Shown in pieces: positions 3,539 through 61,137 of a DNA stretch of 64,000 nt. The notes beneath the pieces were generated by a model. That model searched no databases. It saw only the letters and a list, made by a program, of their open reading frames with translations, and was not told the DNA's origin. The stretch is from Pantoea sp. Nvir (GTDB lineage Bacteria > Pseudomonadota > Gammaproteobacteria > Enterobacterales > Enterobacteriaceae). Position numbers and translations under genes: made by a program. The stretch's first letter is position 1. Every line of letters begins with the position of its first letter. The stretch is from positions 62,001 through 126,000 of the forward strand of contig NZ_SZZW01000001.1 of assembly GCF_009829915.1 (NCBI RefSeq). Reading direction: 5' to 3'.

Positions 3539-4618
3539 TTACTCCTCACCGGCCAGAGCAACTAACTGATCTGCCTGATACTCTTGGACATTCGGTTCAA
3601 TTAGGTTGTCGAGCTTACCCTCCATGGTTTCCTCAAGACGATGAAGGGTCAGATTAATACGATGATCGGTGACACGTCCCTGAGGAAAATTGTAGGTGCG
3701 AATACGATCAGAACATTCACCGCTGCCAAGCAGATTGCGGCGTGTGCTCGCTTCTACTTCACGGCGCTTCGCTATTTCTGCAGCGTGGATACGAGCACCC
3801 AGAACTGCCAGCGCTTTGGCTTTGTTTTTATGCTGAGATCGTTCATCTTGGCACTCCACGACGATACCAGTAGGTAGATGGGTAATACGTATAGCAGAAT
3901 CAGTGGTGTTAACGTGTTGGCCACCTGCACCAGATGAACGGAAGGTATCAATTTTTAGATCAAAAGGGTTAATATCCCTGAGTTTCGCTTTAGGCAGTTC
4001 AGGCATCACTGCGACGGTGCAGGCAGAAGTATGAATACGACCCTGAGATTCGGTTTCTGGCACACGCTGAACGCGATGGCCGCCAGATTCAAACTTCAGG
4101 CGGCCATAGGCACCCTCACCTGTCACACGTGCGATCACCTCTTTATACCCACCGTGTTCGCCTTCGTTGGCGCTAACAATTTCAACTCGCCAACGGCGGC
4201 CTTCGGCATAACGACTGTACATACGGAAGAGATCACCTGCGAAAATCGCTGCCTCGCCTCCTCCGGTGCCGGCTCGTACTTCAATAAAGCATGCACGGTC
4301 ATCTTCTGGATCTTTTGGGAGCAGCAGCTGTAGCTGCTGCTCCAACCGCGCTCTTTCTCCGCGCGCAAGTCGTAATTCTTCTTGCGCCATATCGCGTATT
4401 TCCGCATCATTCAGCATTAACTGAGCCGCTTCAATATCTTCCTGCGTGTGTTGCCACGCACGAAAACATTGAGTAACGTCAGTTAATTGAACGTATTCGC
4501 GTGAAAGCGTGCGGAAGCGATCTTGATCGGCGATGATACTTGCATCGCCCAGCATCGCTTCTACTTCTTCGTAGCGCTCTTGAAGCGCTTCTAATTTAGC
4601 AATAATAGAAGTTTTCAT
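3539..4618 (-). CDS. prfA: peptide chain release factor 1
   Basis: RF1 ends translation at UAA and UAG. The 359-residue protein carries the GGQ loop ([14 protein letters not shown], near residue 230) that triggers peptidyl-tRNA hydrolysis, and the codon-recognition tripeptide in the context [13 protein letters not shown]. The tripeptide reads PET rather than E. coli PAT, but the central position varies in bacterial RF1 and this looks functional. It is the middle gene of hemA-prfA-prmC, 43 nt after hemA. A perfect 12-bp-arm inverted repeat lies inside the coding sequence at 4318-4343. Confidence 0.97.
4318..4343. repeat. perfect inverted repeat in prfA, 12-bp arms
   Basis: GGAGCAGCAGCT, then GT, then AGCTGCTGCTCC. 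It encodes a Leu/Gln-rich stretch (EQQLQLLLP) of a coiled-coil region, so low-complexity codons could partly explain it. Confidence 0.85.
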
Positions 4619-4661
4619 TTCGTGATAAAATTCTCATTACAGAGGGCAAAAACCAGAAAGT

Positions 4662-5918: not shown

Positions 5919-6144
5919 AGCGATAATAGCAATAAAGTTGGTTTGTCCCAATAATGTCAGGGTTTTGTGAAGCGCATTCTATAAGATGTGATAGACCATG
6001 GAAAGCTATACAAAATTCATCATAGTCATATAAGATTAATTGATCATGTTCAATTTTCTGTCATCTTTATTGACTCGTTATAGCTTGGTCGTTAGCTTTG
6101 TTTATTACAAATTAAAAATGTGTTTAAGGAGAGGAGATAACTAC

Positions 6145-6777
6145 GTGGTATCTTTTCCACCACGCAATATATTGTGCATTTTTTTGCTATTAGTGAGCGT
6201 TCTGCTAGCCGCATGTACCGTTAATAATACTCAAGGTCCTGGTCCTAGTACAACAGTACCACAGTGGAAGCAGCATCAGCAGCAGGTGGAGAAAGTCACG
6301 CGTTATAGAACACGCGGTGTTTTCGCTTATATTTCTAATAGAAAAAAAATTTATGCTCGATTTAACTGGCAGCAATCAGCACCAGACCTCTATTCTTTGC
6401 TATTGACCAGCCCACTAGGTAGCACAGAGCTACAGCTCAATGCTCAGGGCAAGACCGTACAGCTTATAGACAATAAAGGCAAAAGATACGTCAGCAACGA
6501 TGTAGAAAAGCTGATCGCTCAGCTAACAGGTATGAATATTCCACTGACCAAGCTACGTCAGTGGATTATGGGGCATCCTGACAATATCAGTCAATATCAG
6601 CTTAACAGTAACTATCAGTTAAAAAGCCTGAAATATAATCGCAACGGCCAACATTGGCAGGTCAATATTCAAAGTTACGATAACAAGGTAACGCCTGCGA
6701 TGCCTATGAGTATAGAGTTACGCGAAGATGACCAATGCATTATTAAGCTACGTATGGATAGCTGGAGCATTCCATGA
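6145..6777 (+). CDS. lolB: outer-membrane lipoprotein receptor LolB
   Basis: LolB takes lipoproteins from the periplasmic carrier LolA and inserts them into the outer membrane. The frame is open from 6040, but the best start is the GTG at 6145. It follows a purine-rich GGAGAGGAGATAA and gives a lipoprotein signal peptide (hydrophobic [11 protein letters not shown], lipobox LAAC) at the right distance. The mature part matches E. coli Lol[43 protein letters not shown]. Product about 210 residues (E. coli 207). It overlaps ispE by 4 nt (ATGA), so the two are translationally coupled. LolC, D and E are also in this window. Confidence 0.93.
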
Positions 6778-7643: not shown

Positions 7644-7737
7644 TGGTGTCACCTTGTTTCAGATACTTTAACTCTGCGCATTAACATACCCGTATGAATA
7701 GTGCTGTAGGATGCGCAGTGTCCGTTGGTTACTGTAA

Positions 7738-8712
<975 letters not shown>

Positions 8713-11236: not shown

Positions 11237-12931
11237 ATGAAGAAATTGTTTTTAACCACGCTCTTCAAACGTCAAGGAGTTGCACCATTCGTCGTGCTGA
11301 CTCTGCTGTTTTATCAGCCTGCACTGACGACGCAGGCTGATGATAATATACAACATATGCTCAGCAACCATCCAAAACCTCCGGATATACGATTTGGTGA
11401 GCTATTTGAGGAAGTGCAGAATGCACAACTTTATACTGACCAAAAAACCTTCGCTGACGCTGTACCTAAATACGATCCCTCTTTGATCATAGCTGATTGG
11501 AAAAGGCAGAGAAATCAGAGAAATTTCGACTTAAAAAATTTTATATTGAACAATTTCACCCTACCAGACGAAAGTAATAAGTATGTGCCAAGCACAGGAT
11601 ATAGTCTTCGTGCGCATATCAACAGTCTCTGGCCAGTGCTGACACGTACTACCAAAAGCACCGGACGCTATGACTCGCTACTACCTTTGCCAAAGCCCTA
11701 TGTGGTTCCTGGTGGTCGTTTCCGAGAGTTTTATTACTGGGACAGCTACTTTACCATGCTTGGTCTAGCGGAAAGTAAACGATGGGATCTCGTGCAGAAC
11801 ATGGTGGACAACTTTGCGTGGGAGATAGATCACTATGGTCATATACCAAATGGCAATCGCAGCTACTATCTTAGCCGGTCTCAGCCCCCCTTTTTCAGCC
11901 TGATGGTAGAGTTGTTGGCAACACACGTTGGTGATGTCATATACACTAAATATTTACCGCAGTTGCATAAAGAGTATAACTACTGGATGGCAGATAGTAA
12001 CAGCGTTTCTGCTGGTCAGGCAAGCAAGCGCGTGGTTAAGCTAGCAGATAACACGCTTTTAAACCGCTACTGGGACGATCGAGCCGTGCCACGTACTGAA
12101 TCTTGGCTAGACGATGTTAATACCGCGAAAAAAGCGCCGCAGCGCGATAAAAGTGAGATCTATCGTGACCTGCGCACCGGTGCTGCATCTGGTTGGGATT
12201 TTAGCTCACGCTGGTTCAGCGAACCATATAACATTACCTCAATACGTACTACCCAGTTAGCGCCTGTTGATCTTAATAGCCTAATTTTCCACTTAGAGCA
12301 GACACTTGCTAAAGCCTACCAAATAAATAAACAGCAAGATAAAGCGAAACAGTTCGATAATCTAGCAGAAAAGAGGCAGGCAGCGGTTAATCATTACCTG
12401 TGGGATGAAAAGCATGGGTGGTACGCTGACTACGATATTAAGAACAAGTATGTCGTTAGTGAGCGGCTTACTGCCGCAACTCTCTTTCCTCTCTATATGC
12501 AGCTTGCTAGCGACAAACAAGCTGATCGTACCGCTTCTGCCGTGGAGAATCAACTACTGAAAACGGGCGGTTTACTTACCACTACGGTGAACAATGGTCA
12601 GCAGTGGGACGCACCAAACGGCTGGGCGCCACTGCAATGGGTAGCAATAGCTGGTCTAGAGCACTACAACAAACCGCAGCTAGCGCAACAGATAGGATTG
12701 CGCTTTCTGAAGAATGTACAAACCACTTATGATAAAGATCATAAGCTAGTTGAAAAATATGTAGTTGACGGGCCAAATCTTGGCGGAGGTAGTGGAGGCG
12801 AATATCCACTTCAAGATGGCTTCGGTTGGACTAACGGTGTAACACTGATGTTGCTTGACAAATACTGCCCAAAAGAGAAAAGTTGTAACAACGCACAAGA
12901 TATTCCTCAAATCTCTATAATGAAGAAATAA
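11237..12931 (+). CDS. treA: periplasmic trehalase TreA
   Basis: TreA hydrolyses trehalose to two glucose molecules in the periplasm (glycoside hydrolase family 37). The 564-residue precursor (E. coli 565) has a signal peptide, with a KK/KR-rich start, hydrophobic [12 protein letters not shown] and likely cleavage after TQA. Both family signatures are present: [15 protein letters not shown] near 155 and [12 protein letters not shown] near 455. The glycine-rich [19 protein letters not shown] ends the domain. Trehalose is a major insect blood sugar, so retention fits an insect host, but released glucose would need a transporter other than the broken PtsG found here. A perfect 10-bp-arm inverted repeat lies in the signal-peptide region. 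Confidence 0.96.
11313..11341. repeat. perfect inverted repeat in treA, 10-bp arms
   Basis: ATCAGCCTGC, 9 nt, GCAGGCTGAT, within the codons around the signal peptide cleavage site. Confidence 0.85.
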
Positions 12932-12939
12932 CCTGCCTA

Positions 12940-12981
12940 GGCAAAATACCTACCTACGTTGGTATTTTGCCTTATTTCTTT
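12940..12981 (+). terminator. intrinsic terminator of treA
   Basis: Nine nt after the treA stop, GGCAAAATACC and GGTATTTTGCC pair as a perfect 11-bp stem around a 10-nt loop, followed by the T-rich TTATTTCTTTTA. A standard Rho-independent terminator. Confidence 0.85.
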
Positions 12982-20633: not shown

Positions 20634-20906
20634 TTATTTCAAAAATTGATTGTGGTTATCATTAGTAGGCGTATTCAACATATGTTGCATCTCAACATAT
20701 GTTGAGATGTTAATCCGTACTGCATATTCTTGTGTAAGCAACACTAGGTAATATCCATCATGATTAGAGTAATTAATAACTAAATTATACTTCTTTTCAT
20801 CGCTAAAACATGGTACTGCCGCTATTTTCAGGTAGCATCGCGCCCTCTTACTAGCTGACTGATGCGAACGGCTGTGCTGTAATCTCTGAACAGCTTCCGC
20901 TTCCAT
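20634..20906 (-). CDS. possible 90-residue protein of unknown function
   Basis: An open frame runs away from potA, starting ATG at 20906 after CAGGTT and ending TAA at 20634. The product begins MEAEAVQRLQHSRSHQ and contains KKYNLVINYSNHDGYYLVLL. I recognise no family, signal peptide or membrane segment. Codons look mixed rather than purely AT-driven, unlike the gap beside it, but it could be chance. It contains the tandem palindromes at 20676-20709, which cautions against function. pepT lies divergently from potA in E. coli, but this is not PepT. Confidence 0.25.
   Translation of the reverse strand: MEAEAVQRLQHSRSHQSASKRARCYLKIAAVPCFSDEKKYNLVINYSNHDGYYLVLLTQEYAVRINISTYVEMQHMLNTPTNDNHNQFLK
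20676..20709. repeat. two adjacent perfect palindromes upstream of potA
   Basis: CAACATATGTTG (20676-20687) is directly followed by a 22-bp perfect palindrome (20688-20709) whose arm is CATCTCAACAT. The 12-mer CAACATATGTTG therefore occurs twice, 17 bp apart, on one face or nearly so of the helix, about 220 bp before potA. It could be a paired operator, a bidirectional terminator, or a mutational product. Confidence 0.9.
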
Positions 20907-20925: not shown

Positions 20926-22044
20926 ATGACGCAAACATACGTGCCGCAGGCGCTGGTTACGCTTTCTGGCATCAGTAAAGTTTTCAACGCCAAATCTATC
21001 ATTAGTGACTTTAACTTGACTATTAACGATGGTGAATTTATTACTTTGCTTGGTCCGTCAGGGTGTGGAAAAACCACCATCTTGCGTTTAATTGCTGGGC
21101 TAGAAGAAGTTGATAGCGGCCGCGTAATACTAGACGGTAATGATGTCACCAATATGCCAGCCGAGCATCGTCATGTTAATACAGTTTTTCAAAGTTATGC
21201 ACTCTTTCCTCATATGTCCGTATTTGAAAATGTTGCGTTTGGTCTACGTATGCAGAAAAAGCCGAATGCAGAGATCACTATGCGTGTTAGTGAGGCACTG
21301 TCGATAGTTCAGCTGGAAAGTTTTGCAGATCGTCGCCCTCATCAGCTCTCTGGTGGTCAACAGCAGCGCGTTGCTATTGCACGCGCGGTGGTGAATCGCC
21401 CCAAAGTACTGCTGCTTGATGAGTCACTATCCGCTCTCGATTACAAGCTGCGTAAACAAATGCAGAATGAGCTAAAGGCTCTTCAGCGCAAACTTGGTAT
21501 TACCTTTATTTTTGTTACCCATGATCAAGAAGAGGCACTCGCTATGTCGGATCGCATCGTGGTAATGCGGGATGGCAAGATTGAGCAGGACGGCACTCCA
21601 CGTGAGATCTATGAAGAACCGAAGAATCTGTTTGTAGCATGCTTTATCGGCGAGATTAATGTATTTAATGCCGCCGTACTGGATGCCAGCGACTCTCCAC
21701 TCGTACGTGCACGAGTGGAGAGTCGTGACTGCGATATTAACTGTCCCTTTCCGGTAACCGTTGGTGATCGCCTGTATGTTCTACTACGTCCGGAAGATCT
21801 ACGCGTCGAAGAAGTATACAACAGCAAGCAGGTGGTACAAGGACTCATTGGCTATATACGCGAACGTAACTACAAAGGGATGACGCTAGAGTTAACTGTG
21901 GAGCTTGAAAATGGCAAAATAGTAACAGTGAGTGAGTTCTTCAATGAGGACGATCCTGACTTTGATTATTCTCTAAACCAAAAAATGGTCATAAACTGGA
22001 TTCCCAGTTCGGAGGTGGTGTTACGCTATGAAGCTAATGCGTAA
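20926..22044 (+). CDS. potA: spermidine/putrescine ABC transporter ATPase PotA
   Basis: PotA energises polyamine import with PotB, PotC and PotD. I chose the ATG at 20926, which has TGAG just upstream; an in-frame GTG at 20917 is possible. Walker [10 protein letters not shown] near 47, signature [14 protein letters not shown] near 145, Walker [13 protein letters not shown], and the C-terminal regulatory OB-fold part ([18 protein letters not shown]) are complete. About 372 residues (E. coli 378). potB starts inside its last codons. A 15-bp-arm hairpin (21690-21725) lies in the hinge between the ATPase and regulatory domains. Confidence 0.97.
21690..21725. repeat. perfect hairpin inside potA, 15-bp arms
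   Basis: CGACTCTCCACTCGT, loop ACGTGC, ACGAGTGGAGAGTCG. It encodes the segment [13 protein letters not shown], a variable linker after the ABC domain. The reading frame is intact. Confidence 0.95.
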
Positions 22045-28520: not shown

Positions 28521-29000
28521 ATTATTCTGTTTTGGTAATTTCCCCAATTAGTAGGCCAGTGATAATTAAAAAATCATTTAGGTTTGTAAAATCTCATAAT
28601 TCTATGGGTACAAATTGTATCAATTTTTTTGCGAAGGAAACCCCATAATCCGGCTATATGCTTAATCGATGATCGTGTATTTAGGCTATATTACTAAATA
28701 TATTTAGAGTTATGTACCTTAAATCTAGGTTTAGACAACATATTCGACTATCTTAAATATAGTATTGTAAGATACTAATTTGCAGATTTCACAATTAAGA
28801 TTATGAACTGTTTAAATAAAAACACTTTGTAACTAAGTGAAGTAAGAATGTATCAAGCAACTACAGATGTTATTATTGCACCTAATCTGAACGAATATCA
28901 ATCTTCCATATGTGCACTATACCTAACTATATATCAGTAACATAAGCAACTTGCTTAAAGAAAAACTATAGCATTAAGTAATTACTAAGGGGTAAATCTC
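28521..29000. other. gap between divergent lolC and mfd
   Basis: AT-rich; E. coli has ycfT here and I see no relic. CTAAATATATTTAG (28692-28705) is a 14-bp AT palindrome of the kind expected by chance. AAGG at 28988 precedes the decayed mfd start. Confidence 0.5.
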
Positions 29001-29405
29001 CTGTCCGCACAAACTCTCTTTACTATGCTAGTAAAACTTGGTGATTGCTACCCGCTTAGTCATTTGACCGATGTGGTGTATGTGTTATATTGTGCCAATA
29101 TCACCTATTATCACTCTGGTCTGATGATGATTATCCCAGACATAAAAACTACATGGCGTTTGCTGTATGCACTCGTTCAGTTCACTGAACTTCCAATCAG
29201 CAAGGTCTCTGATTAGAAGATGTGGCTTTATAACAGCTTATACCCACGTACGGATATCATTTCGGCCAGCTTGGCGACACTCCGTCAGCTGCCGAATGTA
29301 GCACAGTATACTAATTATACTGATGCACAACTTGATACAGCACATCTGTGCGTATAATTATACGCACAGATGTGCTAATGATAATCAAAGCAAGGGAACA
29401 GATTA
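29001..29405 (+). pseudogene. mfd: decayed 5' part of mfd (domains D1a-D2)
   Basis: The first ~130 codons of Mfd are still recognisable but out of frame with the rest. From CTG at 29001 the frame reads LVKLGDCYPLSHLTDV..., matching E. coli LPVKAGEQRLLGELTGA, through LMMIIPDIKTTWRLLYAL and QFTE. It stops at 29214-29216. The next homologous block, YPRTDIISASLATLRQLPN, starts about 29249 in another frame. A 38-bp perfect palindrome follows at 29339-29376, where E. coli has the block around VNTLMQRVCP, and the frame then shifts into the long open stretch from 29406. CTG replaces the usual start codon. Confidence 0.85.
29339..29376. repeat. 38-bp perfect palindrome
   Basis: Two 19-bp arms with no spacer; the left arm is AGCACATCTGTGCGTATAA and the right arm is its exact reverse complement. 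It lies within the decayed 5' end of mfd. Confidence 0.97.
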
Positions 29406-32186
29406 TTGCGTAACGGCTTGCTTCTAATAGTACAGGCCGTTTACCGCCATTTAGACAGACTAATGAAATACAGCAAATATATTACGTGGGGCACGTTGTT
29501 TGATCTATTCTATATCAGCAGTCAAACATCCCATCGAGTTAACTTCTACGATAACAAGATTGACGATATCCAGAGACTTTTTAACGTTGACACACACCGT
29601 ACATCAGAAGCAGTTTCAGTGATTAATTTACTATCGTATTATGAATTTTTAATCAACAAAAAGGCAATTGGACTCTTGCGTATCCGATGGCGCGATCTGT
29701 TTACTGTGCACCATGAGATAGAATATATCTATAAAAAAATAAGCAAAGACACTCTGCCAAGCGAGGTAGGATACTATCAATGGCGCTTTTTTAAGCAAGG
29801 TCTGCTGATGATCTTGGGCTTCTTTCCCCAAAAGAATGTGATTATGAATCATGGTAATCTCAAAAAGAGAATAGAAAATTTTTGGTGGAATGTCGAAACA
29901 CGCTATGAGAACTACTGCTTCAATCCAATACGTCGGCTTATAAAGAAGGAGATTAAGCTAAGTCAACAAAAGGTACATTGTTTTGATAAGAGCATTCAGG
30001 AGCTGCCTACACTGACTATGAGCACCAGTAAGTGTAATTCGGTTAACACCCTACGCAATTGCGCTCCCATTGATGAGAACGACCAGTTTGGTAAAAACGT
30101 CAGTTCTCACTTTCAACAAGATAAGAGCTATCCCATCAATTCCAATATTTTCATTCACAACTGGGATATGCTAATACCAGGACAACCGGTAGTGCATTTA
30201 GAACACGGAGTCGGTCGTTATATCGGTCTTCGTACTCTGGAAGTAGGAGGTATCAAGTCGGAGTATCTGATGCTCTCTTACGCTAATGACGCTAAACTTT
30301 ATGTACCAGTGTCTTCTCTGCATCTCATTAGCCGTTACGATGGTGGTGCAGATGAAAATGCTCCACTACACAAACTGGGAAGCGATACTTGGTCGCGCAC
30401 GCGGCAGAAAGCGGTTGAAAAAGTGCGCGACGTTGCAGTAGAACTGCTGGATATTTACGCCCAGCGTACTGCGAAAGCAGGTTATGCTTTTAAGCACGAT
30501 CGCGAACAGTATCAGCTCTTTTGTGAGACGTTCCCGTTTAAGACCACTCCAGATCAGGCTCAGGCGATTGATGCGGTGTTGAACGATATGTGTAAGCCAT
30601 TGGCGATGGATCGTCTGTTGTGCGGAGACGTAGGTTTTGGCAAAACCGAAGTAGCGATGCGTGCGGCTTTCCTAGCAGTTAATAATCATAAGCAGGTAGC
30701 TGTGCTAGTACCGACTACATTACTGGCACAACAGCACTACGATAATTTTCGAGATCGCTTTGCTAATTGGCCGGTGCGTATTAAAATGCTATCGAGATTC
30801 TGTAGTGTTAAAGAACAGTCGCAAGTTTTACAAGAAGCTAGTGAAGGTAAAATTGATATCTTAATAGGTACTCATAAGTTACTAATAAAAGATATGAAAT
30901 TTTACGATTTAGGTCTGCTGATTATTGATGAAGAACACCGTTTTGGAGTGCGACACAAAGAGCGCATTAAGGCAATACGTGCTGATATCGATATTTTAAC
31001 GCTGACTGCAACACCGATTCCACGTACTCTAAAAATGGTGATGAGCGGCATGCGTGATTTATCAATTATCGCCACACCACCAGTATGTCGTTTGGCAGTA
31101 AAAACCTTTGTATGTGAATACAACTCCTTAATTGTACGCGAAGTTATTTTACGTGAAATTTCACGTGGTGGCCAAGTTTATTACCTTTACAATGATGTAT
31201 CGAATATCGAGAAAGCAGCACGGAGGTTGGTGGAGCTCGTGCCAGAGGCATGCATTGCCATCGGCCACGGCCAGATGCGGGAGCGCACCCTTGAAAGAGT
31301 AATAAATGATTTTTATCATCAACGTTTTAACGTGCTAGTTTGTACTACTATTATTGAAACTGGTATTGATATTCCAACTGTCAATACTATTATTATTGAG
31401 CGTGCTGACCAGTTTGGTCTAGCTCAACTACATCAATTAAGAGGTCGGGTTGGACGCTCTGATCATCAGGCATACGCTTGGTTACTGACGCCACATCGGA
31501 AAGCGATAAATAGTGATGCGCAGAAGCGTTTAGAAGCAATTGCCTCGTTGGGAGATCTTGGTGCGGGCTTTACGCTAGCAGCACAAGATCTGGATAGCCG
31601 TGGCGCAGGTAAGCTATTAGGTGAAGAGCAGAGTGGCCAGATAGAGACGCTAGGTTTCTCATTCTATATGCAATTACTAAAAAATGCAGTGGAGGCGCTT
31701 AAAGTAGGACGTGAGCCGTCATTACAAGACCTCATTAGTAATCAGACTGAACTAGAACTACATATCCCTGCTCTTTTACCAGAGGATTTTATTCCTGACG
31801 TTAATACGCGTCTATCTCTCTATAAGCGTATTGCTAATGCTGAAAACACAGAAGTGTTGCGGGATCTTAAAGTTGAGATGATCAACTTCTTTGGCTTGTT
31901 ACCAGATGCTGTGCGCAATCTACTAGATAGTGCAATGCTTCGACTATTAGCGCGTAGTCTTGGTATTTGCAAGATCGAAGTTAGTGATAAAGGAGGCTTT
32001 TTTGAATTTACGCCAAAAAACAATATTGATCCTACCTGGCTCATCAGCCTGTTGCAAAAAGATCCTAAGCAGTGGAAGCTTAATGGTCCAACGAGATTGT
32101 GCTTTACCAAAGATTTGCCTGAGTGCAAACTGCGTATAGAGTGGGTGCAAGACTTTATGACCCAGTTGAGTAAAAACTGCTCATAA
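29406..32186 (+). CDS. mfd: transcription-repair coupling factor Mfd, truncated
   Basis: Mfd dislodges stalled RNA polymerase and recruits UvrA. This frame (926 codons from a TTG; an ATG lies at 29463) lacks the first ~150 residues, and about 95 residues are missing between the D1b/D2 remnant and the polymerase-interacting domain. The first ~250 residues are diverged (MKYSKYITWGTLFDLFYISS aligns to E. coli MEHGEYATRGALLDLFPMGS). From IPGQPVVHLEHGVGRY onward it is highly conserved: Walker A GDVGFGKTEVAMR, DEEHRFG, LTATPIPRTL, RGRVGRS, and the C-terminal D7. So the UvrB-like module is degraded, while the polymerase-binding and translocase modules look intact. It may be a polymerase-removing factor without repair coupling, or an early pseudogene. 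Confidence 0.85.
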   Translation: MRNGLLLIVQAVYRHLDRLMKYSKYITWGTLFDLFYISSQTSHRVNFYDNKIDDIQRLFNVDTHRTSEAVSVINLLSYYEFLINKKAIGLLRIRWRDLFTVHHEIEYIYKKISKDTLPSEVGYYQWRFFKQGLLMILGFFPQKNVIMNHGNLKKRIENFWWNVETRYENYCFNPIRRLIKKEIKLSQQKVHCFDKSIQELPTLTMSTSKCNSVNTLRNCAPIDENDQFGKNVSSHFQQDKSYPINSNIFIHNWDMLIPGQPVVHLEHGVGRYIGLRTLEVGGIKSEYLMLSYANDAKLYVPVSSLHLISRYDGGADENAPLHKLGSDTWSRTRQKAVEKVRDVAVELLDIYAQRTAKAGYAFKHDREQYQLFCETFPFKTTPDQAQAIDAVLNDMCKPLAMDRLLCGDVGFGKTEVAMRAAFLAVNNHKQVAVLVPTTLLAQQHYDNFRDRFANWPVRIKMLSRFCSVKEQSQVLQEASEGKIDILIGTHKLLIKDMKFYDLGLLIIDEEHRFGVRHKERIKAIRADIDILTLTATPIPRTLKMVMSGMRDLSIIATPPVCRLAVKTFVCEYNSLIVREVILREISRGGQVYYLYNDVSNIEKAARRLVELVPEACIAIGHGQMRERTLERVINDFYHQRFNVLVCTTIIETGIDIPTVNTIIIERADQFGLAQLHQLRGRVGRSDHQAYAWLLTPHRKAINSDAQKRLEAIASLGDLGAGFTLAAQDLDSRGAGKLLGEEQSGQIETLGFSFYMQLLKNAVEALKVGREPSLQDLISNQTELELHIPALLPEDFIPDVNTRLSLYKRIANAENTEVLRDLKVEMINFFGLLPDAVRNLLDSAMLRLLARSLGICKIEVSDKGGFFEFTPKNNIDPTWLISLLQKDPKQWKLNGPTRLCFTKDLPECKLRIEWVQDFMTQLSKNCS

Positions 32187-33391: not shown

Positions 33392-34681
33392 TTAAGCTTC
33401 TAACATCGACTGTGCCAGATAACTTTTCTCATTCACAACACCTGGTAAAACAAAAAAGTAACCGCCACCGATTGGACGCACATATTCCTCCAGATCTTCT
33501 CCGTTTAATCGTTTCTGCACAGTAATGAAGCCTTTTTCTATATCATGCTGATAACACACAAAGAGAAGGCCCATATCAAGTTGTCCTGATGCGGTAACAC
33601 CCTCCGAATAGCTATAGCCCCGCCGTAGTATCAAGCTACTCTCCGTCTCACTAGTACGAGGATTAGCAAGACGAATATGTGCATCGAGAGCGATAATCTT
33701 GCCGTCTGGATCCTGCGCGTAGTTGGGAATATCTTTCTCGTGATTCATACCTAACGGTGCACCACTTAGTTTTTCACGGCCAAAAATAGTTTGCTGCTCG
33801 CCGAGTGGAGTACGGTCCCACATTTCGACGTAAAAACGAATAATGCGTGCTACCTGATAACATCCGTTATGAGCCCAAGCTGGCTCATCTTGATTAGATG
33901 TAACCCATAATAGCTTGTCCATCAACAGGTTATTCTGAGTATCAGGATTCGCAGTACCGTCTTTAAACCCGAGTAGGTTAATCGGTGTTTCTTTACTTCC
34001 ATTACGGGAAGGAGAGTCAGCAATGAAACCTTCGCGTCGCCAGCGTACACCAAGCAGATCGGGCGTATGCTTAATAATATCTCGCACTGCATGGATAACT
34101 GTATCTTGAGTATTTGCACAGATTTGCAGCAGCAAATCTCCATGGCACTGAGAGGCATCAAGCGAATCATTCGGGAAACGCGTCATAGTTTGAAGTTTTT
34201 TTGGCCGTACATCCTCTAGGCCAAAGCGATGGTCGAATAACGTTGCTCCTACCGATACCGTAATCGTGAGGTTGTCCGGTGCAATAAACCCCCCTAAGAT
34301 GCCAGAATCCATCGGTGGTAGCTGTAGATTAACAACAGGTGGTGCTAAGCCTCCATGAGTTAAAAAAGAAATCCGGTTGGTTAATACCTGAAATAACCGT
34401 ACCAAATCAGCTTTATCACTGGCCAGCACATCAAAAGCGACTAGCATCATTGATGCCTGCTGCGGCGTGATAATGCCTGCTTGATGCTGTCCATAAAAGG
34501 GCTGCACCTGCTGCCGAGCCTCAACCGCCGAAACCACTGATCCCATGGGATCAGTGGGAGTAGTTTCTGCCGATACATGAAACGGACAACCACCACTTAA
34601 GGCAGTCGCACTGCCAAGCATTCCTAAACCCTTTAAAAGGCGCCGCCGCGCGGACTGTATTTCATCCTGTCGATGACTCAT
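33392..34681 (-). CDS. efeB: deferrochelatase/heme peroxidase EfeB
   Basis: EfeB is a periplasmic dye-decolorising-type heme peroxidase of the EfeUOB iron importer; it oxidises ferrous iron or removes iron from heme. The ATG at 34681 lies 1 nt after the efeO stop. The N-terminus carries a twin-arginine signal ([22 protein letters not shown]), so export needs TatABC, not visible in this window. The family motif GFKDGTANP (catalytic Asp) lies near 235. About 429 residues, near E. coli size. A 24-bp perfect palindrome (34534-34557) lies in codons of the mature N-terminus (TDPMGSVV) without breaking the frame. Confidence 0.94.
34534..34557. repeat. 24-bp perfect palindrome inside efeB
   Basis: Arm CCACTGATCCCA and its exact reverse complement, no spacer, inside intact efeB coding sequence. 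Confidence 0.96.
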
Positions 34682-42720: not shown

Positions 42721-42741
42721 TAATTTTCTGCCAGAAAATTA
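42721..42741 (+). terminator. hairpin after putA
   Basis: TAATTTTCT-GCC-AGAAAATTA, a perfect 9-bp stem 16 nt after the putA stop, without a T tract. May stabilise the 3' end. Confidence 0.4.
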
Positions 42742-44458: not shown

Positions 44459-44480
44459 AAAATCTCCCTAGGGAGATTTT
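44459..44480 (-). terminator. 22-bp palindrome, ptsG terminator
   Basis: Arm AAAATCTCCCT and its exact reverse complement lie 12 nt past the ptsG stop. The A/T flanks allow bidirectional termination between ptsG and the downstream hinT. Confidence 0.65.
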
Positions 44481-44491: not shown

Positions 44492-45963
44492 TCACATACC
44501 GCTGTGTATGTAGTCATCCATATTGGTTTTCAAGTTGTCAGATTTAGTACCGAAAATAGCTTGAATGCCAGAACCTGCTACTACAATACCGCGTGCACCA
44601 AGACTTTTTAACTCAGTCTTATCTACTTTTCTGATATCCACCACACTGATGCGTAAACGTGTAATACAGGAGTCCAAGTAAGTGATATTCTCTTTTCCTC
44701 CAAATGCTGCAATAAGTTTACCTGCTATTTCGCGACTGCTTATGCTGTTTTCTGAAGAAAGAAATTCAGTGGTAGTAGTCCCTTCATCATCACGACCTGG
44801 TGTTTTCAATTGTAACTTAGTAATCAGTACTCGAAAGATAGTATAATAAACTAGACCGTAAAGAATCCCGACAATTGGGAAAAGCCAAATTCTGCTGCTA
44901 TTGCCGCTTAGTAAAATAAAATCAGTGAGACCATGCGAAAAACTGGTACCATCACGCATGCCAAGCAGGATACAGATAGAGAATGCTAAACCCGCTAGAA
45001 GAGCATGGATTACATAGAGGATCGGGGCAACAAACATAAACGAGAACTCAATTGGTTCAGCGATTCCTGTCTGTTAAGAAGGCAGTCAGTGCAGCAGAAA
45101 CCATGATGCCGCCCACCTTGGTACGGTTTGCGGATTTTGCAGAATGCCAAATAGCGATTGCTGCGGATGGTAGACCATACATCTTAAATAGAAAACCGCC
45201 TGATAGTTTACCTGCAGTAGGATCACCCGCTAAATAGCGCGGAACATCACCGTGAAAAGTCTGGCCAGCTGCATTAGTGTATTCACCAATTTGCATTTGA
45301 AAAGGCACGTTCCAGATATGGTGCAAACCAAAAGGCAATAGTGCACGCTCAACAATGCCGTAAATGCCGAAGGCGACAACCGAGTTTTGATAGGCAGCCC
45401 ACTGTGAGAAATTGTGGATAGCAGAACTAATTGCTGGCCAGATAAAGGAGAGTATGACTCCAAAAAAAATAGCCGTTAGTCCAGGTATAATAGGCACGAA
45501 GCGTTTACCAGCAAAAAAGCCTAAGTATTCTGAAAGCTGAATACGATAAAAGCGATTGAACATATAGGCCGCAATTGCACCGGCTATAATACCGCCCAAC
45601 ACTACCAGTATCTGACAAATGTCTGGTATCGATGATTCCTGTGCTTGAAACATTCATGCCCAATACTAGTGGGGCAACCACTGACATGGTCTTTACAATA
45701 AAGCCATAAGCTACTACAGATGCTAATGCAAAAACACCATCATTATTAGTGAAACCAATCGCCACACCGATCGCGAAGAGTAGGGGCATATTGGTAAATA
45801 TAAAGCTGCCGGTCTCTGTCATAACACGGGAAACTATAGCTGGTTGCCAGCTATAGTTTCCCGAACCAACCCCTAATAAAATGCCGACAACGGGCAGAAC
45901 TGATACTGGCAGCATAAGTGATTTACCGATCTTTTGCAGATTCGCAAAAGTGTGCCTGCACAT
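44492..45963 (-). pseudogene. ptsG: ptsG, glucose PTS EIICB, two frameshifts
   Basis: The glucose-specific phosphotransferase permease is present over its whole length but in three frames. Frame 1 covers the N-terminus ([20 protein letters not shown] to about residue 120). An extra base near 45604, inside the family stretch DTGVLGGII, shifts it. Frame 2 runs [16 protein letters not shown]... to SAALTAFLT. There the four bases CTGT occur twice in tandem (45067-45074), shifting the frame and giving FLTDRNR-stop. Frame 3 holds the rest of IIC and the IIB domain with its phosphorylation Cys ([10 protein letters not shown]). Nothing else is damaged, so inactivation looks recent. A 17-bp-arm hairpin lies at 45827-45863. 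Confidence 0.92.
45827..45863. repeat. perfect hairpin inside ptsG, 17-bp arms
   Basis: CGGGAAACTATAGCTGG, loop TTG, then the exact reverse complement. It replaces the codons around the family's variable loop after GVGS(A/G)N and W(L/Q)PA. Confidence 0.96.
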
Positions 45964-51437: not shown

Positions 51438-51459
51438 CTTTCCCTCCTTGGAGGGAAAG
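51438..51459 (-). repeat. hairpin just before fabF ribosome-binding site
   Basis: CTTTCCCTCC, 2 nt, GGAGGGAAAG: a perfect 10-bp stem ending 13 nt before the fabF GTG. Its right arm itself contains GGAGGG, so folding could mask or mimic the ribosome-binding site. Confidence 0.8.
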
Positions 51460-51486: not shown

Positions 51487-51510
51487 TCAGGCGGTCGAGC
51501 GACCGCCTGA
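51487..51510 (-). terminator. intercistronic terminator between acpP and fabF
   Basis: On the minus strand, 22 nt after the acpP stop, TCAGGCGGTCG-CT-CGACCGCCTGA (11-bp GC-rich stem) is followed by TTTTTATAT. It has the form of an intrinsic terminator and would set high acpP and lower fabF expression if leaky. Confidence 0.8.
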
Positions 51511-52665: not shown

Positions 52666-53598
52666 TTATTCCTGTTTAAGTGCTGCAGAAAGAGACGTCG
52701 GATCATTAACTGCTGCAGCAGTTAAGTTGCACATAATGCGTTTAGTCAAGCCCGTAAGCACTTTTCCTGGTCCCATCTCTAGGATATGAGTAACGCCCTG
52801 GGATGCCATAAACTCTACGATTTCAGTCCAGCGAACTGGATTATAGAGCTGACGTACTAACGCGTAACGGATCTTCGCTACTTCGCTTTCGCATTTTACG
52901 TCAACATTATTGATCACTGGAATCAAGGGTGCGTTGAAAGTAATTTTCTCCAGCGCAATCTTTAGTTTAGTTGCTGCTGGCTTCATTAGTGCACAGTGTG
53001 AAGGTACACTGACTGGTAGCAGAAGAGTGCGTTTTGCACCTGCTGCTTCACAAGCCACGCGAGCGCGCTCGACTGCCTCTTTATTTCCTGAGATGACTAT
53101 TTGTTTTGGGGAATTAAAATTAGCCGGAGAAACAACTTGTCCCTGTGCACTTTCTTCGCAAACTTTGTAGATCGCGAGAGCGTTAAGACCTATAATAACC
53201 TGCATTGCTCCCATGCCCTCTGGCACAGCTTCCTGCATTAATTTGCCACGTAGTTCAACCAACTTAATAGCGTCAGAGAAAGCCATCACGCCTGCGCAGA
53301 CGAGAACAGAATATTCTCCGAGGCTGTGACCAGCCATCAGGGATGGCTGTTTACCACCTTGTTGCTGCCACACTCGATAGATTGCCACTGACGCAGCCAG
53401 CAGCACGGGCTGCGTTTGCCAGCTTTTGTTCAGCTCTTCAGCTGGTCCGTTGCTAACTAGTTGCCATAAATCATATCCCAGCACCTCAGAAGCTTCGCAG
53501 AAGGTCTTTTTCAGTTGTGGATACACTGCTGCTAGCTCTGCTAACATGCCTACGTTCTGTGAGCCCTGACCAGGAAAAACAAATGCAAATTTCGCCAT
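52666..53598 (-). CDS. fabD: malonyl-CoA:ACP transacylase FabD
   Basis: FabD loads malonyl groups onto ACP. The ATG at 53598 gives MAKFAFVFPGQGSQNVGMLAE (310 residues, E. coli 309). Nucleophile Ser in AGHSLGEYSVL near 93, catalytic His in SVPSHCALMKPAA near 201, GQGSQ oxyanion loop. It is followed by fabG 10 nt on. A 20-bp perfect palindrome (52706-52725) lies in the codons for LTAAAVN near the C-terminus, and smaller hairpins fall elsewhere in the gene. Confidence 0.97.
   Translation of the reverse strand: MAKFAFVFPGQGSQNVGMLAELAAVYPQLKKTFCEASEVLGYDLWQLVSNGPAEELNKSWQTQPVLLAASVAIYRVWQQQGGKQPSLMAGHSLGEYSVLVCAGVMAFSDAIKLVELRGKLMQEAVPEGMGAMQVIIGLNALAIYKVCEESAQGQVVSPANFNSPKQIVISGNKEAVERARVACEAAGAKRTLLLPVSVPSHCALMKPAATKLKIALEKITFNAPLIPVINNVDVKCESEVAKIRYALVRQLYNPVRWTEIVEFMASQGVTHILEMGPGKVLTGLTKRIMCNLTAAAVNDPTSLSAALKQE
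52706..52725. repeat. 20-bp perfect palindrome inside fabD
   Basis: TTAACTGCTG with its exact reverse complement CAGCAGTTAA, no spacer, in intact coding sequence. Confidence 0.93.
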
Positions 53599-55607: not shown

Positions 55608-55632
55608 GGTACCGGTTGATAAACCTAAGTTA

Positions 55633-55803: not shown

Positions 55804-55859
55804 AATAAATTTACTCCTTTAATTTTTAACTTTCTACACTAGTTTATTTAATAAAATAT

Positions 55860-56135: not shown

Positions 56136-56607
56136 ATTAGGGAAGATTTCACATTCTGTATATAGCTTGTATACTAATTTTGTGAGGTGACGGAGTCAAA
56201 GACAAGAGTTCATTTTACAACATTTTCACCCGTTAGTCACTAGCCTATTGCCATCCTGATTTCCTAGTTTAGATCTGAATGCTCGACGGCGAGATTGCCG
56301 ATAAATTTACATATTACCTTTACCATTCTGTAGCTACAGAATGGTAAAGTCTATTACTTTTTATACTACGTTACCTTTCTATACACCCACGGAGGAGGAT
56401 GCGGTCGTGCGTTAAGCTTTTTATCATACGCTTTAGCTTACGTTGACAACAATATATCTACTGTTATACGTAGATACGTAAGGAGTAGTGTAATAAGTAG
56501 CAATTTGCATTACGCGAAAATTTTAAAAGTAACGACCGATGATATATATAATGTATTATGCTAAGAGAACTACCCCATAAAACTTGGGACTGTTAGTAGC
56601 AGCAGAA
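56136..56607. other. gap between yceD relic and rluC, with large palindrome
   Basis: AT-rich; the missing 5' half of yceD should have lain here but I cannot align it. The main feature is the 32-bp palindrome listed separately. Confidence 0.5.
56318..56349. repeat. 32-bp perfect palindrome
   Basis: Arm CTTTACCATTCTGTAG with its exact reverse complement, no spacer. It lies about 270 bp past the rluC stop and upstream of the yceD relic, with no T tract closer than TTACTTTT about 5 bp on. Confidence 0.97.
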
Positions 56608-57576
56608 CTAATCTATTTTATTTTTTCTCTGTCGTAGCACCTTTATACAGCGGTTGAGTGCATCATCAAGTGGCGCCTCTAAGCGAAGGGTTTTACCGCT
56701 ATTGGGATGGGTAAAGACTAGTGCAGCGGCGTGTAAAAAAAGACGACGTAAGCCCGTATTTTCTAGTTGGCTATCGAAGTCACGTTCACCGCAGCGGCCA
56801 TCAAACGCTATAGGGTGTCCAGCATGTAGGGCATGAACACGGATCTGATGTGTACGCCCTGTAACTGGACTCGCTTTCACTAGCGTAGCAAAAGAAAAAC
56901 GCTCCTCAACTTTAAAGAGCGTCTCTGACGGTTTACCTTCGCTGCTGACGCGTACTACACGCTCACCGCTGTGTAGAATTTTCTTCAACAAAGGCGCCTG
57001 CACCACTTTTAAATTCGACGGCCAGCTACCGCGTACCAATATCAGATAATCCTTTTGCATAGATCTTTTGCGCAGCTGTTCGTGTAGAGTAAGCAGTGCC
57101 GAACGCTTCTTCGCTACTAGTAACACACCAGAAGTATCGCGATCAAGGCGATGCACAAGCTCAAGGAAACGCGCCTCTGGTCGAAGTGCGCGTAGCCCTT
57201 CTATGATACCGAAACTTAGCCCGCTGCCACCGTGTACTGCCGTACCAGAAGGTTTATTTAGTACCAGGATGTAATCATCTTCATAAAGGATGGCTTCATT
57301 CAATGAAGCCACCTTCTCTAGCTTTGGTGACACTGTCTGATTAGTACTCTTAGCTATGTGCACCGGAGGAAGGCGTATCTGATCACCCTCTTCAAGTTTG
57401 TAGTCAGGCTTAATGCGCTTTTTATTCACCCGTATCTTACCTTTGCGCATAATGCAATAAATCATGCTTTTCGGCACGTGCTTAAGTTGGCGATTGCATA
57501 AAAAATTATCAATACGCTGTCCGGCATTTTCAGCAGAAACATTAATGAATTGTACACTTAAATTCTCATTCTTCAT
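56608..57576 (-). CDS. rluC: 23S rRNA pseudouridine(955/2504/2580) synthase RluC
   Basis: RluC makes three pseudouridines in 23S rRNA. 322 residues (E. coli 319). N-terminal S4 RNA-binding domain (QRIDNFLCNRQLKHVPKSMIYCIMRKGKIRVN, about 17-60), catalyt domain with Asp in VHRLDRDTSGVLLVAK near 145, and GRTHQIRVHALHAGHPIAFD near 232. Divergent from rne, as in E. coli. A 21-bp odd palindrome (57291-57311) lies in the linker after the S4 domain. Confidence 0.97.
   Translation of the reverse strand: MKNENLSVQFINVSAENAGQRIDNFLCNRQLKHVPKSMIYCIMRKGKIRVNKKRIKPDYKLEEGDQIRLPPVHIAKSTNQTVSPKLEKVASLNEAILYEDDYILVLNKPSGTAVHGGSGLSFGIIEGLRALRPEARFLELVHRLDRDTSGVLLVAKKRSALLTLHEQLRKRSMQKDYLILVRGSWPSNLKVVQAPLLKKILHSGERVVRVSSEGKPSETLFKVEERFSFATLVKASPVTGRTHQIRVHALHAGHPIAFDGRCGERDFDSQLENTGLRRLFLHAAALVFTHPNSGKTLRLEAPLDDALNRCIKVLRQRKNKID
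57291..57311. repeat. perfect inverted repeat in rluC, 10-bp arms
   Basis: TGGCTTCATT, C, AATGAAGCCA, in codons for KVASLNEAIL of intact rluC. Confidence 0.92.
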
Positions 57577-58167
57577 GTTGATAATTCTAAATGGAATTCT
57601 GAAATAGTGCTATCCTTTTTTCTCTGCTTATTTTCTGTGATTAATTTTTTACTGATTTATTTCGTAAGAAAGTACATCTGGCGTCTACTTTTCAGCATTC
57701 CATTCAATATTAGGCAATATTTAAAACATTAAACATCACTAATCTTAATCAAGCTATAAAAGTCGCCTTGCTATATCAAGGTTAGCAATGGAATAATACT
57801 TGCATTTCTCACCTAATCTCCTTCAGGAGATAAATAGAGAAAATTAATCCTTTTGCCGAATAAAACAGACATGCATCAATAACGTAAGATAGAATGTTAA
57901 TTCAGGAAGTTCTCAGGATGCATGTTACATGTATTGAGGGAATTTTGGAATGCAGGGGGGGGTTTTAAATATCTCTTAGGCATTTCAGCATAACAGCGCT
58001 GTTTTTTCTTATAAAAAACAGGCCAACGACGTTATTTCTCTCCTCGCACAGTTGATAACCGGAAGGTTAACGTAAAACATTTAAGCAAAGTGACCATCGA
58101 TAAACATTCGTACATGGTAACTACGCCCCAGCTTTGTCACTCATGTGAGAATAACGAGTCAGAAACG
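57577..58167 (+). promoter_or_regulatory. rluC-rne divergent region and long rne leader
   Basis: In E. coli rne has a ~360-nt leader with hairpins through which RNase E represses its own synthesis. Here two hairpins lie in the corresponding place: ATCTCCT-TC-AGGAGAT (57816-57831) and CTGTTTTTT-CTTAT-AAAAAACAG (57999-58021). A run of eight G lies near 57955. I cannot place the promoter. Retained autoregulation is inference. Confidence 0.45.
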
Positions 58168-61137
58168 ATGAAAAGAATGTTAATTAATGCAACTCAGCAG
58201 GAGGAGTTGCGCGTTGCCCTTGTTGATGGGCAACGCTTGTACGATCTTGATATTGAAAGATTTGGACACGAGCAGAAAAAAGCTAATATATATAAAGGTA
58301 AAATTACACGTATTGAACCCAGCCTTGAAGCTGCATTTGTTGATTACGGCGCCGAACGTCAAGGTTTTCTTCCCCTTAAAGAAATTTCTAGTGAATATTT
58401 TGCAACCGACTCCAATGCGACCGGGCGTCAGAATATTAAAGACTTGCTGCGTGAAGGCCAGGAAGTAATAGTGCAAATTGATAAAGAGGAACGCGGTAAT
58501 AAAGGTGCAGCACTGACTACTTTTATCTCCCTAGCAGGTAGCTATTTAGTGCTGATGCCAAATAACCCACGTGCAGGCGGCATTTCTCGCCGTATTGAAG
58601 GCGATGAACGAACGGAGCTAAAAGAAGCTCTTTCCTCACTAGAGCTGCCAGATGGCATGGGCTTAATAGTACGTACTGCTGGAGTCGGTAAATCTGCGGA
58701 AGCACTGCAATGGGATCTGAGCTTCCGTCTAAAACACTGGGAAGAAATCAAGAAAGCAGCAGAAAATCGTCCGGTAGTGCCTTTCTTAATATATCAGGAA
58801 AGCAACGTAATCGTTCGTGCCTTCCGAGACTACTTACGCCAGGATATCGGTGAAATTCTAGTCGATAACCCGAAAGTACTTGAGCTGGCGCGTCAACATA
58901 TTATTGCTCTCGGGCGTCCAGATTTCATCAGTAAAATGAAACTTTATACAGGGGAAATTCCGCTATTCAGCCATTACCAGATAGAATCACAAATTGAGTC
59001 TGCCTTCCAACGTGAAGTACGTCTACCCTCTGGAGGTTCTATTGTGGTCGATACTACTGAGGCTCTAACCGCTATTGATATAAACTCAGCGCGCGCTACG
59101 CGCGGTGGTGATATTGAAGAGACGGCGTTCAACACTAACCTTGAAGCTGCTGATGAGATTGCACGTCAACTGCGGTTACGCGACCTTGGGGGGTTGATTG
59201 TGATCGATTTTATCGACATGACACCGATGCGTCACCAGCGTGCAGTGGAAAATCGCTTACGTGAAGTGGTACGTCAGGATCGAGCACACATCCAGATGAG
59301 TCATATATCGCGATTTGGACTACTGGAAATGTCGCGACAGCGTCTTAGATCTTCGTTAGGGGAGTCTAGCCATCATGTCTGTCCGCGTTGTAGAGGTAGT
59401 GGCACTATTCGCGACAATGAATCGTTATCATTATCGATTCTACGTTTGATTGAAGAAGAAGCGTTAAAAGACAACACTAAAGAGGTACATGCAATTGTCC
59501 CAGTGCAGATTGCTTCTTACCTCCTGAATGAAAAACGTGAAGCAGTAAACGCAATTGAGAAGCGACAAGGTGGTGTTCGCGCGATTATTGTACCGGACGA
59601 CACCATGGAAACTCCGCACTACTCTGTAGTGCGTTTGCGTAAAGGCGAAGAAGTGCAAACTTTTAGTTACCTTCTACCGAAACTTCATGAAGCGGAAATA
59701 GCTCTACTATCAGAAGAAGAAAATGCCGAGCGTCGTAATCCAGAGCAACCTGGGCCGGGCTTTGCTATACCTGACTCATTTTCGTTACAGTCAAAACCCT
59801 CGGTGGAGCAATCCACTGCTATCGTGCCTACTATCGTAAACGGTAGCGGGTTCTTTAATCGCCTGTGGAAAAAACTGTTCAGTAACAGTGAATCCAAGCC
59901 GGTTCCAGTTAGCGCAGATAAGATACCACACAAAGAAATTCTTGAAGAGAGTGGAATCAAAAAAGATCGCAGCAACCATCTTAAACACTCCAACAACTGG
60001 CGTAATAATAATCTTTACGAGCATATAGCGCGTGAAAAAAGCGAATCTTCTTGCGACAATAGCAACTTGCGTGACAATAAGGGTCATCTTCCCCAGAACG
60101 AGACATGTGTAGAACACGGAGATATTATTTTAACCAACGTCACTAGTCAGAAACGAGAACAACACCATCAGTGTCATCGTGAGGAAAAGAAACGAACACA
60201 ACAACAAAAAGTGAGTCAGCTTGTTGAACAAACTATCTCTGAAATTGTCGAAACAACACAAAAAAGGGAAGAAGGGCGCGTTCAGGTAATGCTGAGACGT
60301 AAAAGTCGTCAGCTAACGCAAAAAGTGCGTCACGTCGATGAGAGCGAGCAACAATCGGCAACAGAAGATGTCGAGGTAATGCTAGAGCTTGCATGTAGCA
60401 CACTACAAAATAAAGAACTTTTGATTGAACAGAAGAAAGTACAAAACTGCGACGACAGCAACGTGCCGTGCCGTTCTCCTTATCATCTACGCGCCGGTGG
60501 CCAACGTCGCCGTCGTTACCACCGTGCCCGCTACCCTGCCAAGTCTACAATACCCTTGGCAGCTGCTTTTACTTCACCAGAGATAGAATCTGGTGAAGTT
60601 TGGGAACATCCTATCCCTAAATTAATTAAGGCGAAAAATACACAAAAAACGCTGGAATATAGACATGAAGGGGCCTGCAGAGCTATAAGGACACAGACCA
60701 CCGACAACGAATATCAAGGTAAAATGCCATTAAGGCTCATTACTGATGACGCTATGCATTTTGATATTCTGGTCAACCACGATAATCATGCGGACATTCC
60801 AGATGATCAGTCAGGAGAAGAAACACAAGCAGTAGTGCCCGAAATAACTGCTGAATCCGCGCCGAAAGTTCCATCAGAGACAAGAACACAGATTAAGAAA
60901 GTGCTAAACACGCCGGTTAGCAACCTGTATGTATCACAGGATTTTATCACCCGCTGTTTCAAGAATCACGCTTTTGCACCAATAACTAAAGTGCCAGTGC
61001 CTAAATGGCAACCAGAACCAATACGCAACAGCGACTGGACACGTTCACCCTTCACTTTTGAAGGCAAAGGTGCGGCAGGAGGTCACAGCGCTACTCATCA
61101 TGCAACCGCCCCAGTGACCCAACCTGAAACCGTTTAA
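58168..61137 (+). CDS. rne: ribonuclease E
   Basis: RNase E is the membrane-bound endonuclease that starts mRNA decay and matures rRNA and tRNA. The ATG at 58168 gives [21 protein letters not shown]; an open extension to 58090 is not homologous. 989 residues (E. coli 1061). The catalytic half is highly conserved: S1 domain, metal-binding Asp in [18 protein letters not shown] and [11 protein letters not shown], Zn-link CPRCRGSG near 404. In the C-terminal half, the membrane-targeting amphipathic helix ([15 protein letters not shown]), the RNA-binding/RhlB region ([15 protein letters not shown]), and the terminal PNPase site ([17 protein letters not shown]) remain, with shortened spacers. So degradosome assembly looks retained. 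Two perfect inverted repeats lie in the gene. Confidence 0.97.
58211..58236. repeat. perfect inverted repeat at start of rne, 9-bp arms
   Basis: GCGTTGCCC, 8 nt, GGGCAACGC, 43 nt into the coding sequence (RVALVDGQR). Near the start codon it might affect translation. Confidence 0.85.
60571..60599. repeat. perfect inverted repeat in rne, 11-bp arms
   Basis: ACTTCACCAGA, GATAGAA, TCTGGTGAAGT, in codons for [10 protein letters not shown] of the degradosome scaffold half. Confidence 0.9.

Follow-up and report, generated by a model that had tools for sequence, protein, structure and literature searches.

Mutation templated by imperfect inverted repeats (quasipalindromes) is well known in Escherichia coli, where template switching in lacZ reporters (QP5/QP6) and at a thyA hotspot allows one arm to template the perfection of the other, typically with small indels (PMC6357072, PMC7202029), and a similar homogenisation of arms in the coding genes of wild-type yeast yields clustered substitutions and parallel events, with no link to lost hairpin nucleases drawn in the abstract of that report (PMC8604942). 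Long palindromes have been described in reduced insect symbionts of the genus Blochmannia (62 to 136 bp, with up to three mismatches allowed), where nearly all are intergenic and were ascribed to selection, the accessible sections of the report giving no ancestral comparison (PMC3017870). Perfect inverted repeats within genes, up to 284 bp long and with template switching as the suggested cause, are reported from nematomorphs, in that case in animal mitochondria (PMC6649704), and endosymbionts are reported to be over-represented among inverted-repeat-rich genomes (PMC10434271). Here we describe long perfect palindromes in a 64-kb stretch (G000:C2:62001-126000; hereafter, the window) of the genome of Pantoea sp. 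Nvir, which comprises 1,425,354 bases in 11 contigs at a GC content of approximately 41% and which its kin and best fabD matches place in Pantoea. In contrast to the reporters and hotspots of E. coli, the products are here fixed through a natural genome, with arms of up to 28 bp. We argue that they are probably scars of template switching at imperfect repeats, accumulating through the loss of the nucleases SbcCD and exonuclease VII (ExoVII) together with genetic drift.

Palindromes were defined throughout as perfect inverted repeats with arms of at least 10 bp and a loop of at most 10 nucleotides (nt), and were located with an exhaustive finder. The window holds 17 such axes (arms of 19, 17, 16, 15 and 13 bp, three of 12, four of 11 and five of 10 bp), among which are, with the same starts, all 11 positions named in a first-pass annotation of the sequence. 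This excess holds under both kinds of shuffled control: Markov models of orders 1, 3 and 5 yield 0.77, 0.73 and 0.90 palindromes, respectively (30 simulations each, maximum 3), and synonymous codon shuffling of the 40 listed open reading frames (ORFs), combined with Markov intergenic sequence, yields 0.8 (200 shuffles, maximum 4). The discrepancy is larger still for arms of at least 12 bp, with eight observed against 0.06 expected. Seven palindromes lie wholly within listed ORFs, compared with 0.585 expected (200 codon shuffles, maximum 3), which bears out the earlier remark that palindromes sit inside genes. The excess in the window is therefore real, and the palindromes, both there and elsewhere in the genome, are unlike one another in sequence as judged by eye.

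To place the window in context, we sampled 334 kb of the Nvir genome (the window plus 17 further stretches, N excluded) and the fabD region of its relatives (loci L001 to L080, 1,633 kb; 79 loci and 1,612 kb once L006, from the Plautia stali type-B symbiont, is removed); all other genomes were likewise represented by sampled stretches rather than whole genomes. The Nvir sample contains 57 palindromes, the longest measuring 59 bp and the longest arms 28, 25, 23 and 20 bp. With terminators counted, its density of 171 per Mb resembles the 181 per Mb of the relatives (295 in 1,633 kb), which, too, exceed shuffles, and plain density was dropped as evidence for this reason. The difference emerges once terminator-like sites are set aside by a simple filter for T-runs and A-runs, which is crude and lets some extended terminators slip through. 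By this filter, 167 of the relatives' 286 palindromes (L006 excluded) are terminator-like, compared with only 11 of the 57 in the Nvir genome, where the other 46 do not resemble intrinsic terminators. Non-terminator palindromes with arms of at least 12 bp number 19 in 334 kb (57 per Mb) in Nvir and 18 in 1,612 kb (11 per Mb) in the relatives, and for arms of at least 16 bp the counts are eight and zero. The gap to the relatives thus sits in non-terminator sites and widens with length. Outside the window, only 2 of 16 palindromes with arms of at least 12 bp lie in ORFs of at least 150 amino acids, so that the coding share seen in the window is atypical of long palindromes.

We then aligned the window sites to P. 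piersonii, P. latae and the type-B symbiont (genome G014, taken as such from the identical match coordinates of L006), at a divergence of approximately 25%. Ten window proteins were named with NCBIfam, and the remaining gene names are attributions of our own. Twelve of the 17 sites are alignable and perfect in none of the three relatives, in which the repeat is imperfect or one arm is missing, and at these 12 sites the arms have been rewritten or inserted so as to match. Four of them can be read as events. In prfA (NCBIfam; 4318 to 4343, arms 12 bp, loop 2 nt), the left arm has been rewritten with a 3-nt deletion that leaves the ORF open, and the right arm is the same as in P. piersonii. Near the start of efeB (deferrochelatase/peroxidase, NCBIfam; 34534 to 34557, arms 12 bp, no loop), the stretch is approximately 15 nt longer than in the relatives, the added bases being an inverted copy, and the ORF again stays open. 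Directly upstream of fabF (51438 to 51459, arms 10 bp, loop 2 nt), the left arm is formed by 11 nt absent from the relatives. In the broken ptsG gene (45827 to 45863, arms 17 bp, loop 3 nt), the relatives are imperfect and both arms have changed, giving a repeat perfect over 17 pairs. ptsG itself (44492 to 45963) appears fragmented, in that ORF 45505 to 45963 covers only the first quarter of the PTS glucose IIBC component and the next ORFs, by eye, seem to continue it.

At the other derived sites of the window, the changes are unreadable event by event at this divergence. The longest arms lie where the 5' part of mfd has decayed (29339 to 29376, arms 19 bp, no loop), the corresponding repeat in the relatives being imperfect and longer by 2 nt; mfd (28989 to 32186) is 5'-truncated, its ORF from 29406 covering model positions 404 to 1145 of 1148, and stop codons surround the 38-bp palindrome in the upstream portion. 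Repeats that are imperfect in the relatives further include those near the start of the trehalase gene, TreA (11313 to 11341, arms 10 bp, loop 9 nt); an overlapping pair upstream of potA (20675 to 20705, arms 13 bp, loop 5 nt; 20688 to 20709, arms 11 bp, no loop) and one without indel in potA itself (21690 to 21725, arms 15 bp, loop 6 nt); and those at the 3' end of fabD (52706 to 52725, arms 10 bp, no loop), in rluC (57291 to 57311, arms 10 bp, loop 1 nt) and in the 3' part of rne (60571 to 60599, arms 11 bp, loop 7 nt). The first-pass annotation had asked whether the arms were made to match by lineage-specific, mostly synonymous changes. Lineage-specific matching is borne out at the 12 sites and fails at 51487 to 51510 (upstream of fabF, arms 11 bp, loop 2 nt), which is ancestral, being perfect in P. 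piersonii, P. latae and type B; synonymy applies only in places, given the in-frame deletion in prfA, the insertion in efeB and several amino acid differences in potA. Of the remaining four sites, one beyond the ptsG remnants (44459 to 44480, arms 11 bp, no loop) coincides with a terminator-like hairpin in the relatives, and three are insecurely aligned: one directly 3' of the trehalase gene (12939 to 12972, arms 12 bp, loop 10 nt) and one directly 3' of what we take to be putA (42721 to 42741, arms 10 bp, loop 1 nt), both possible terminators, and one in what is presumably yceF in the relatives (56318 to 56349, arms 16 bp, no loop). In this last gene, Nvir and type B hold different palindromes with centres six alignment columns apart, a sequence pattern that suggests a hotspot.

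The type-B symbiont offers a nearer comparison than the window allows, as it shares 91% identity with P. latae over 65 kb. We examined 18 type-B palindromes that the filter classed as non-terminator (eight with arms of at least 11 bp and ten with arms of at least 12 bp). Fourteen are derived, that is, imperfect in the aligned relatives (always P. latae, sometimes others; this and the assignment of changes to arms are our own judgement). For three, at least one relative already has the perfect form (L125:5693, L126:17523 and L128:1565, the last with arms of 12 bp in P. piersonii), and one, L128:13926, is unalignable. The L128:1565 repeat lies in a gene that we take to be prmC and recurs in a differently perfected form in genome G059 (L129:1353). 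Ten of the 14 derived cases include an indel, and in five every change relative to P. latae falls in one arm. At L126:471, 11 nt of the right arm have been swapped for 6 that are complementary to the unaltered left arm; at L194:5070, one arm has gained 4 nt and the other has three substitutions, each fitting its partner; at L125:3071, the repeat is completed by two changes, both on the right, and at L103:4958 by two right-arm changes, synonymous as we read them. L189:11707 and L126:9394 are single-change cases that ordinary substitution could explain. The derived changes, multi-base changes and indels included, thus perfect the repeat and match the partner arm, as quasipalindrome mutation does. 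An imperfect precursor is likewise present in relatives at 4318, 29339 and 45827 in the window and at L125:3071, L126:471, L126:9394, L103:4958 and L189:11707 in type B, though it is not clear at every site. At another type-B locus (L193:15136-15164), an inverted repeat lacks approximately 73 nt that separate the arms in P. latae and is now a palindrome with 12-bp arms; inverted repeats in type B may also promote deletions.

Which enzymes might normally hold such products in check? ExoI and ExoVII help to avoid quasipalindrome mutations. The first-pass annotation had named templated mutation, with loss of the nucleases that remove hairpins, as a likely cause of the palindromes. Its first half agrees with the imperfect versions in relatives and the lineage-specific matching; its second half holds for sbcC, sbcD and xseA, none of which is detected in the Nvir genome, and breaks down for xonA (ExoI), which is an open frame both there and in type B. 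In detail, the SbcC model (PF13558) has no match in Nvir and is matched in 35 of the 40 genomes searched (Nvir included), with the proviso that it also catches a protein of approximately 1490 amino acids, presumably MukB. The Nvir genome has no PF13558 match at all, though this protein is usually caught in the relatives, and the MukB-like gene (on our assumed name) may also have been lost or have diverged. SbcD is matched in 59 of 61 genomes of the genus, the exceptions being Nvir and G068, and exceeds the cut-off in 58 of the 60 others; the matches in type B and G059 are fragments that include a stop, and that in G013 is marginal, which may reflect an origin as a metagenome bin (an uncultured Pantoea MAG, metagenome-assembled genome). 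The large subunit of ExoVII has no match in Nvir, and in type B its match is interrupted by a stop and falls into two pieces. All 20 genomes searched for RecB, Nvir among them, have a match above the cut-off; in E. coli, RecBCD reportedly limits template switching (PMC6357072).

SbcCD cleaves palindrome hairpins in E. coli, and the study from which we take both this nuclease and its size range dealt with engineered 460 bp palindromes rather than natural accumulation (PMC4245961). Its in vitro lower size limit is placed at hairpins from palindromes of 20 to 36 bp, which is said to spare natural palindromes (PMC4245961). We compared palindrome length among three sets of sampled genomes: small SbcD-less genomes (G000, G014, G087, G115, G118, G227 and G117; 1,028 kb), larger SbcD-less genomes (G059, G068, G013, G113, G225 and G404; 742 kb) and SbcD-bearing genomes (G077, G078, G018, G067, G445, G159, G190 and G212; 706 kb), where SbcD is assumed for G077 and G078, and SbcD-less includes genomes with weak matches (G013, G117, G225, G227 and G404). 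Two genomes were kept out of the small set: the AT-rich G094, where 12 non-terminator palindromes with arms of at least 12 bp in 80 kb compare with an expectation of 2.7, and G126, with four in 40 kb. Non-terminator palindromes with arms of at least 12 bp number 54, 14 and 9 in the three sets (small against SbcD-bearing, P = 5.2e-6, with sites treated as independent and phylogeny ignored, as in all P values here), those with arms of at least 14 bp number 28, 5 and 2, and those with arms of at least 16 bp number 17, 3 and 0. The excess of the small over the SbcD-bearing set accordingly grows from approximately 2-fold at arm 10 to approximately 4-fold at arms of at least 12 bp and approximately 10-fold at arms of at least 14 bp. 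Expressed as a share of all non-terminator palindromes, arms of at least 16 bp account for 17 of 141 in the small set against 0 of 158 in the SbcD-bearing set and fabD-region relatives combined (P = 1.6e-6), or against 0 of 39 in the sampled SbcD-bearing set alone (P = 0.026), and for 3 of 58 in the larger SbcD-less genomes (against 0 of 158, P = 0.019); with terminator-like sites counted, the shares are 21 of 191 and 2 of 383. The 79 fabD-region loci, which contain no non-terminator palindrome of that arm length in 1,612 kb, were not scored one by one for SbcD, and L013 among them belongs to the SbcD-lacking G013. The length distributions thus diverge over the reported range of SbcCD, being approximately 2-fold apart at 20 bp, with non-terminator cases above 32 bp only in SbcD-less genomes. 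Nor is the signature confined to one lineage, contrary to what the first-pass annotation had suggested, since other SbcD-less symbionts show the same build-up. Among the larger genomes, G225 (3.1 Mb, no real SbcD match) carries a 44-bp perfect palindrome without spacer (L210:6593-6636), around which one frame is open for 165 codons across a 644-bp stretch.

These observations are probably best explained by a model in which a nascent 3' end would fold back, copy the opposite arm and then rejoin its own template, so that the repeat would be perfected or lengthened, or an inverted copy inserted. Template switching itself may be widespread, with SbcCD clearing long palindromes or their hairpin intermediates; once SbcCD, the hairpin nuclease at replicated palindromes, and ExoVII are lost in a host-restricted symbiont, palindromes would accumulate and lengthen, opening the long tail of the distribution, and drift would retain mildly harmful products. 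The best cases have a templated look and most alignable sites are derived; the fold-back steps, and persistence through SbcCD and ExoVII loss rather than drift alone, are our inference. SbcCD loss as the cause of the build-up is unproved, and SbcCD as the sole cause is not established, given how weak the enrichment is in the larger SbcD-less genomes. It is tempting to speculate, more tentatively, that SbcCD sets a natural ceiling on the length of palindromes in bacterial chromosomes, near the size of its substrate, and that its loss in symbionts exposes a steady pressure from template switching.

Several results weigh against this model. In the small set, the density at an arm of exactly 10 bp is already about twice that of the SbcD-bearing set (56 in 1,028 kb compared with 20 in 706 kb). 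Per Mb, no significant difference separates the larger SbcD-less genomes from the SbcD-bearing ones (14 in 742 kb at arms of at least 12 bp, P = 0.24; three at arms of at least 16 bp, P = 0.13), and one of their three long cases, L112:8912 in G068, resembles a terminator stem missed by the filter; this weak effect fits either recent loss or a bystander role. The SbcD-bearing G212 holds three palindromes with arms of at least 12 bp in 80 kb. In the window, the exact ancestors of the sites are not recoverable at 25% divergence, and several sites are altered in both arms. Finally, two broader tests, each on approximately 60 to 80 kb of aligned sequence and thus on small samples, gave no support. 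Weak quasipalindromes (at least nine matched pairs with one to three mismatches, ungapped, gapped segments excluded) were converted at a rate of 0.083 from P. latae to type B, compared with 0.098 and 0.097 in control pairs, which is no rise. A symmetric test for clustered changes found no clear excess in type B: at the loosest setting, templated alleles numbered 15 in type B and 10 in P. latae, 9 and 9 against P. piersonii, 6 and 3 against P. septica and 6 and 2 against P. deserta, and stricter settings showed little or no difference.

The most serious alternative is that the same templated mutation is at work and that SbcCD and ExoVII are bystanders, with host restriction, small populations and decaying genes preserving products that are purged elsewhere. 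We regard this as the less likely reading, although the weak enrichment of the larger SbcD-less genomes speaks for it, as does the position of 14 of the 16 palindromes (arms of at least 12 bp) outside the window that avoid long ORFs. SbcD loss and genome reduction moreover coincide in the sampled genomes: SbcD loss is common to the whole small set, and so, equally, is host restriction or genome reduction. The other nucleases vary within that set, with ExoVII missing or broken in G000, G014, G115, G118 and G117, ExoI missing in G227 and G117, and both kept in G087. Against a bystander role, the reduced but SbcD-bearing genomes G159 (1.6 Mb) and G190 (2.7 Mb) hold only one and two palindromes with arms of at least 12 bp, in 140 and 120 kb, respectively, and none with arms of at least 14 bp, and the divergence widens across the reported size range of SbcCD (PMC4245961).

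Selection for hairpins as terminators, attenuators or stabilisers of mRNA, as argued for the intergenic palindromes of Blochmannia (PMC3017870), would account for the sites that are terminator-like or extend old terminators, but we consider it very unlikely here. The hairpin at L089:6556 in Nvir has arms of 28 bp: where the relatives show a short stem and, after it, a T-tract, the T-tract of Nvir has given way to sequence complementary to the opposite side; stems at L103:11420 and L192:3908 in type B have likewise been extended through their T-tracts. Such overwriting is hard to square with selection for termination and points to copying outward from a stem already in place. Several sites also lie within genes, sequences vary from site to site, and 10 of the 14 derived type-B cases carry indels that match the partner arm. 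As for the Nvir locus itself (L089:6415-6751), an attenuator-like hairpin between a leader that we take to be pheL and the next gene has become a 56-bp perfect palindrome, and regulation of the gene 3' of it may be altered. Elsewhere in the genome, two unrelated palindromes with arms of 23 and 17 bp stand 25 bp apart in non-coding sequence (L096:4480-4591).

A sequencing or assembly artefact from chimeric fold-back reads is highly improbable, because the palindrome-bearing genes stay open, type B shows the same in a separate project and, if the genome is that of SoNv, the Nezara viridula symbiont, its assembly rests on MiSeq 2x300 reads, each longer than the 59-bp longest palindrome, with a mean coverage of 70x (PMC8032781). 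Chance or inheritance from a free-living ancestor, which the inherited site at 51487 and the equal total density in relatives might recall, can be practically dismissed in view of the Markov and codon-shuffle controls, the 12 of 17 sites imperfect in three relatives and the complete lack of non-terminator arms of at least 16 bp in the comparison sequence.

The first-pass annotation had considered that the signature might be undescribed. This stands for the combination alone, given that the type of mutation is well known and that long intergenic palindromes have been reported from Blochmannia (PMC3017870): what seems new is the build-up in several symbionts over the reported size range of SbcCD. 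Among the matches listed in a search of titles and abstract openings of the open-licence literature, none ties symbiont palindromes to SbcCD loss. Knowledge of quasipalindrome correction has come chiefly from reporters, hotspots and yeast strains; the genomes described here are natural bacterial ones in which its products have become fixed, and in the best cases the relatives are close enough for the change to be read. Template switching with nuclease loss offers an account of the long palindromes of insect symbionts based on mutation instead of selection, and a route by which genome reduction destroys terminators and attenuators, and the genomes compared form a natural series for asking what hairpin nucleases do in ordinary chromosomes. 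If SbcCD does set a ceiling on palindrome length, the long palindromes of Blochmannia would be explained without selection, and hairpins that grow, rewrite genes and erase terminators and attenuators would constitute a facet of genome decay that recurs and stems from mutation alone.

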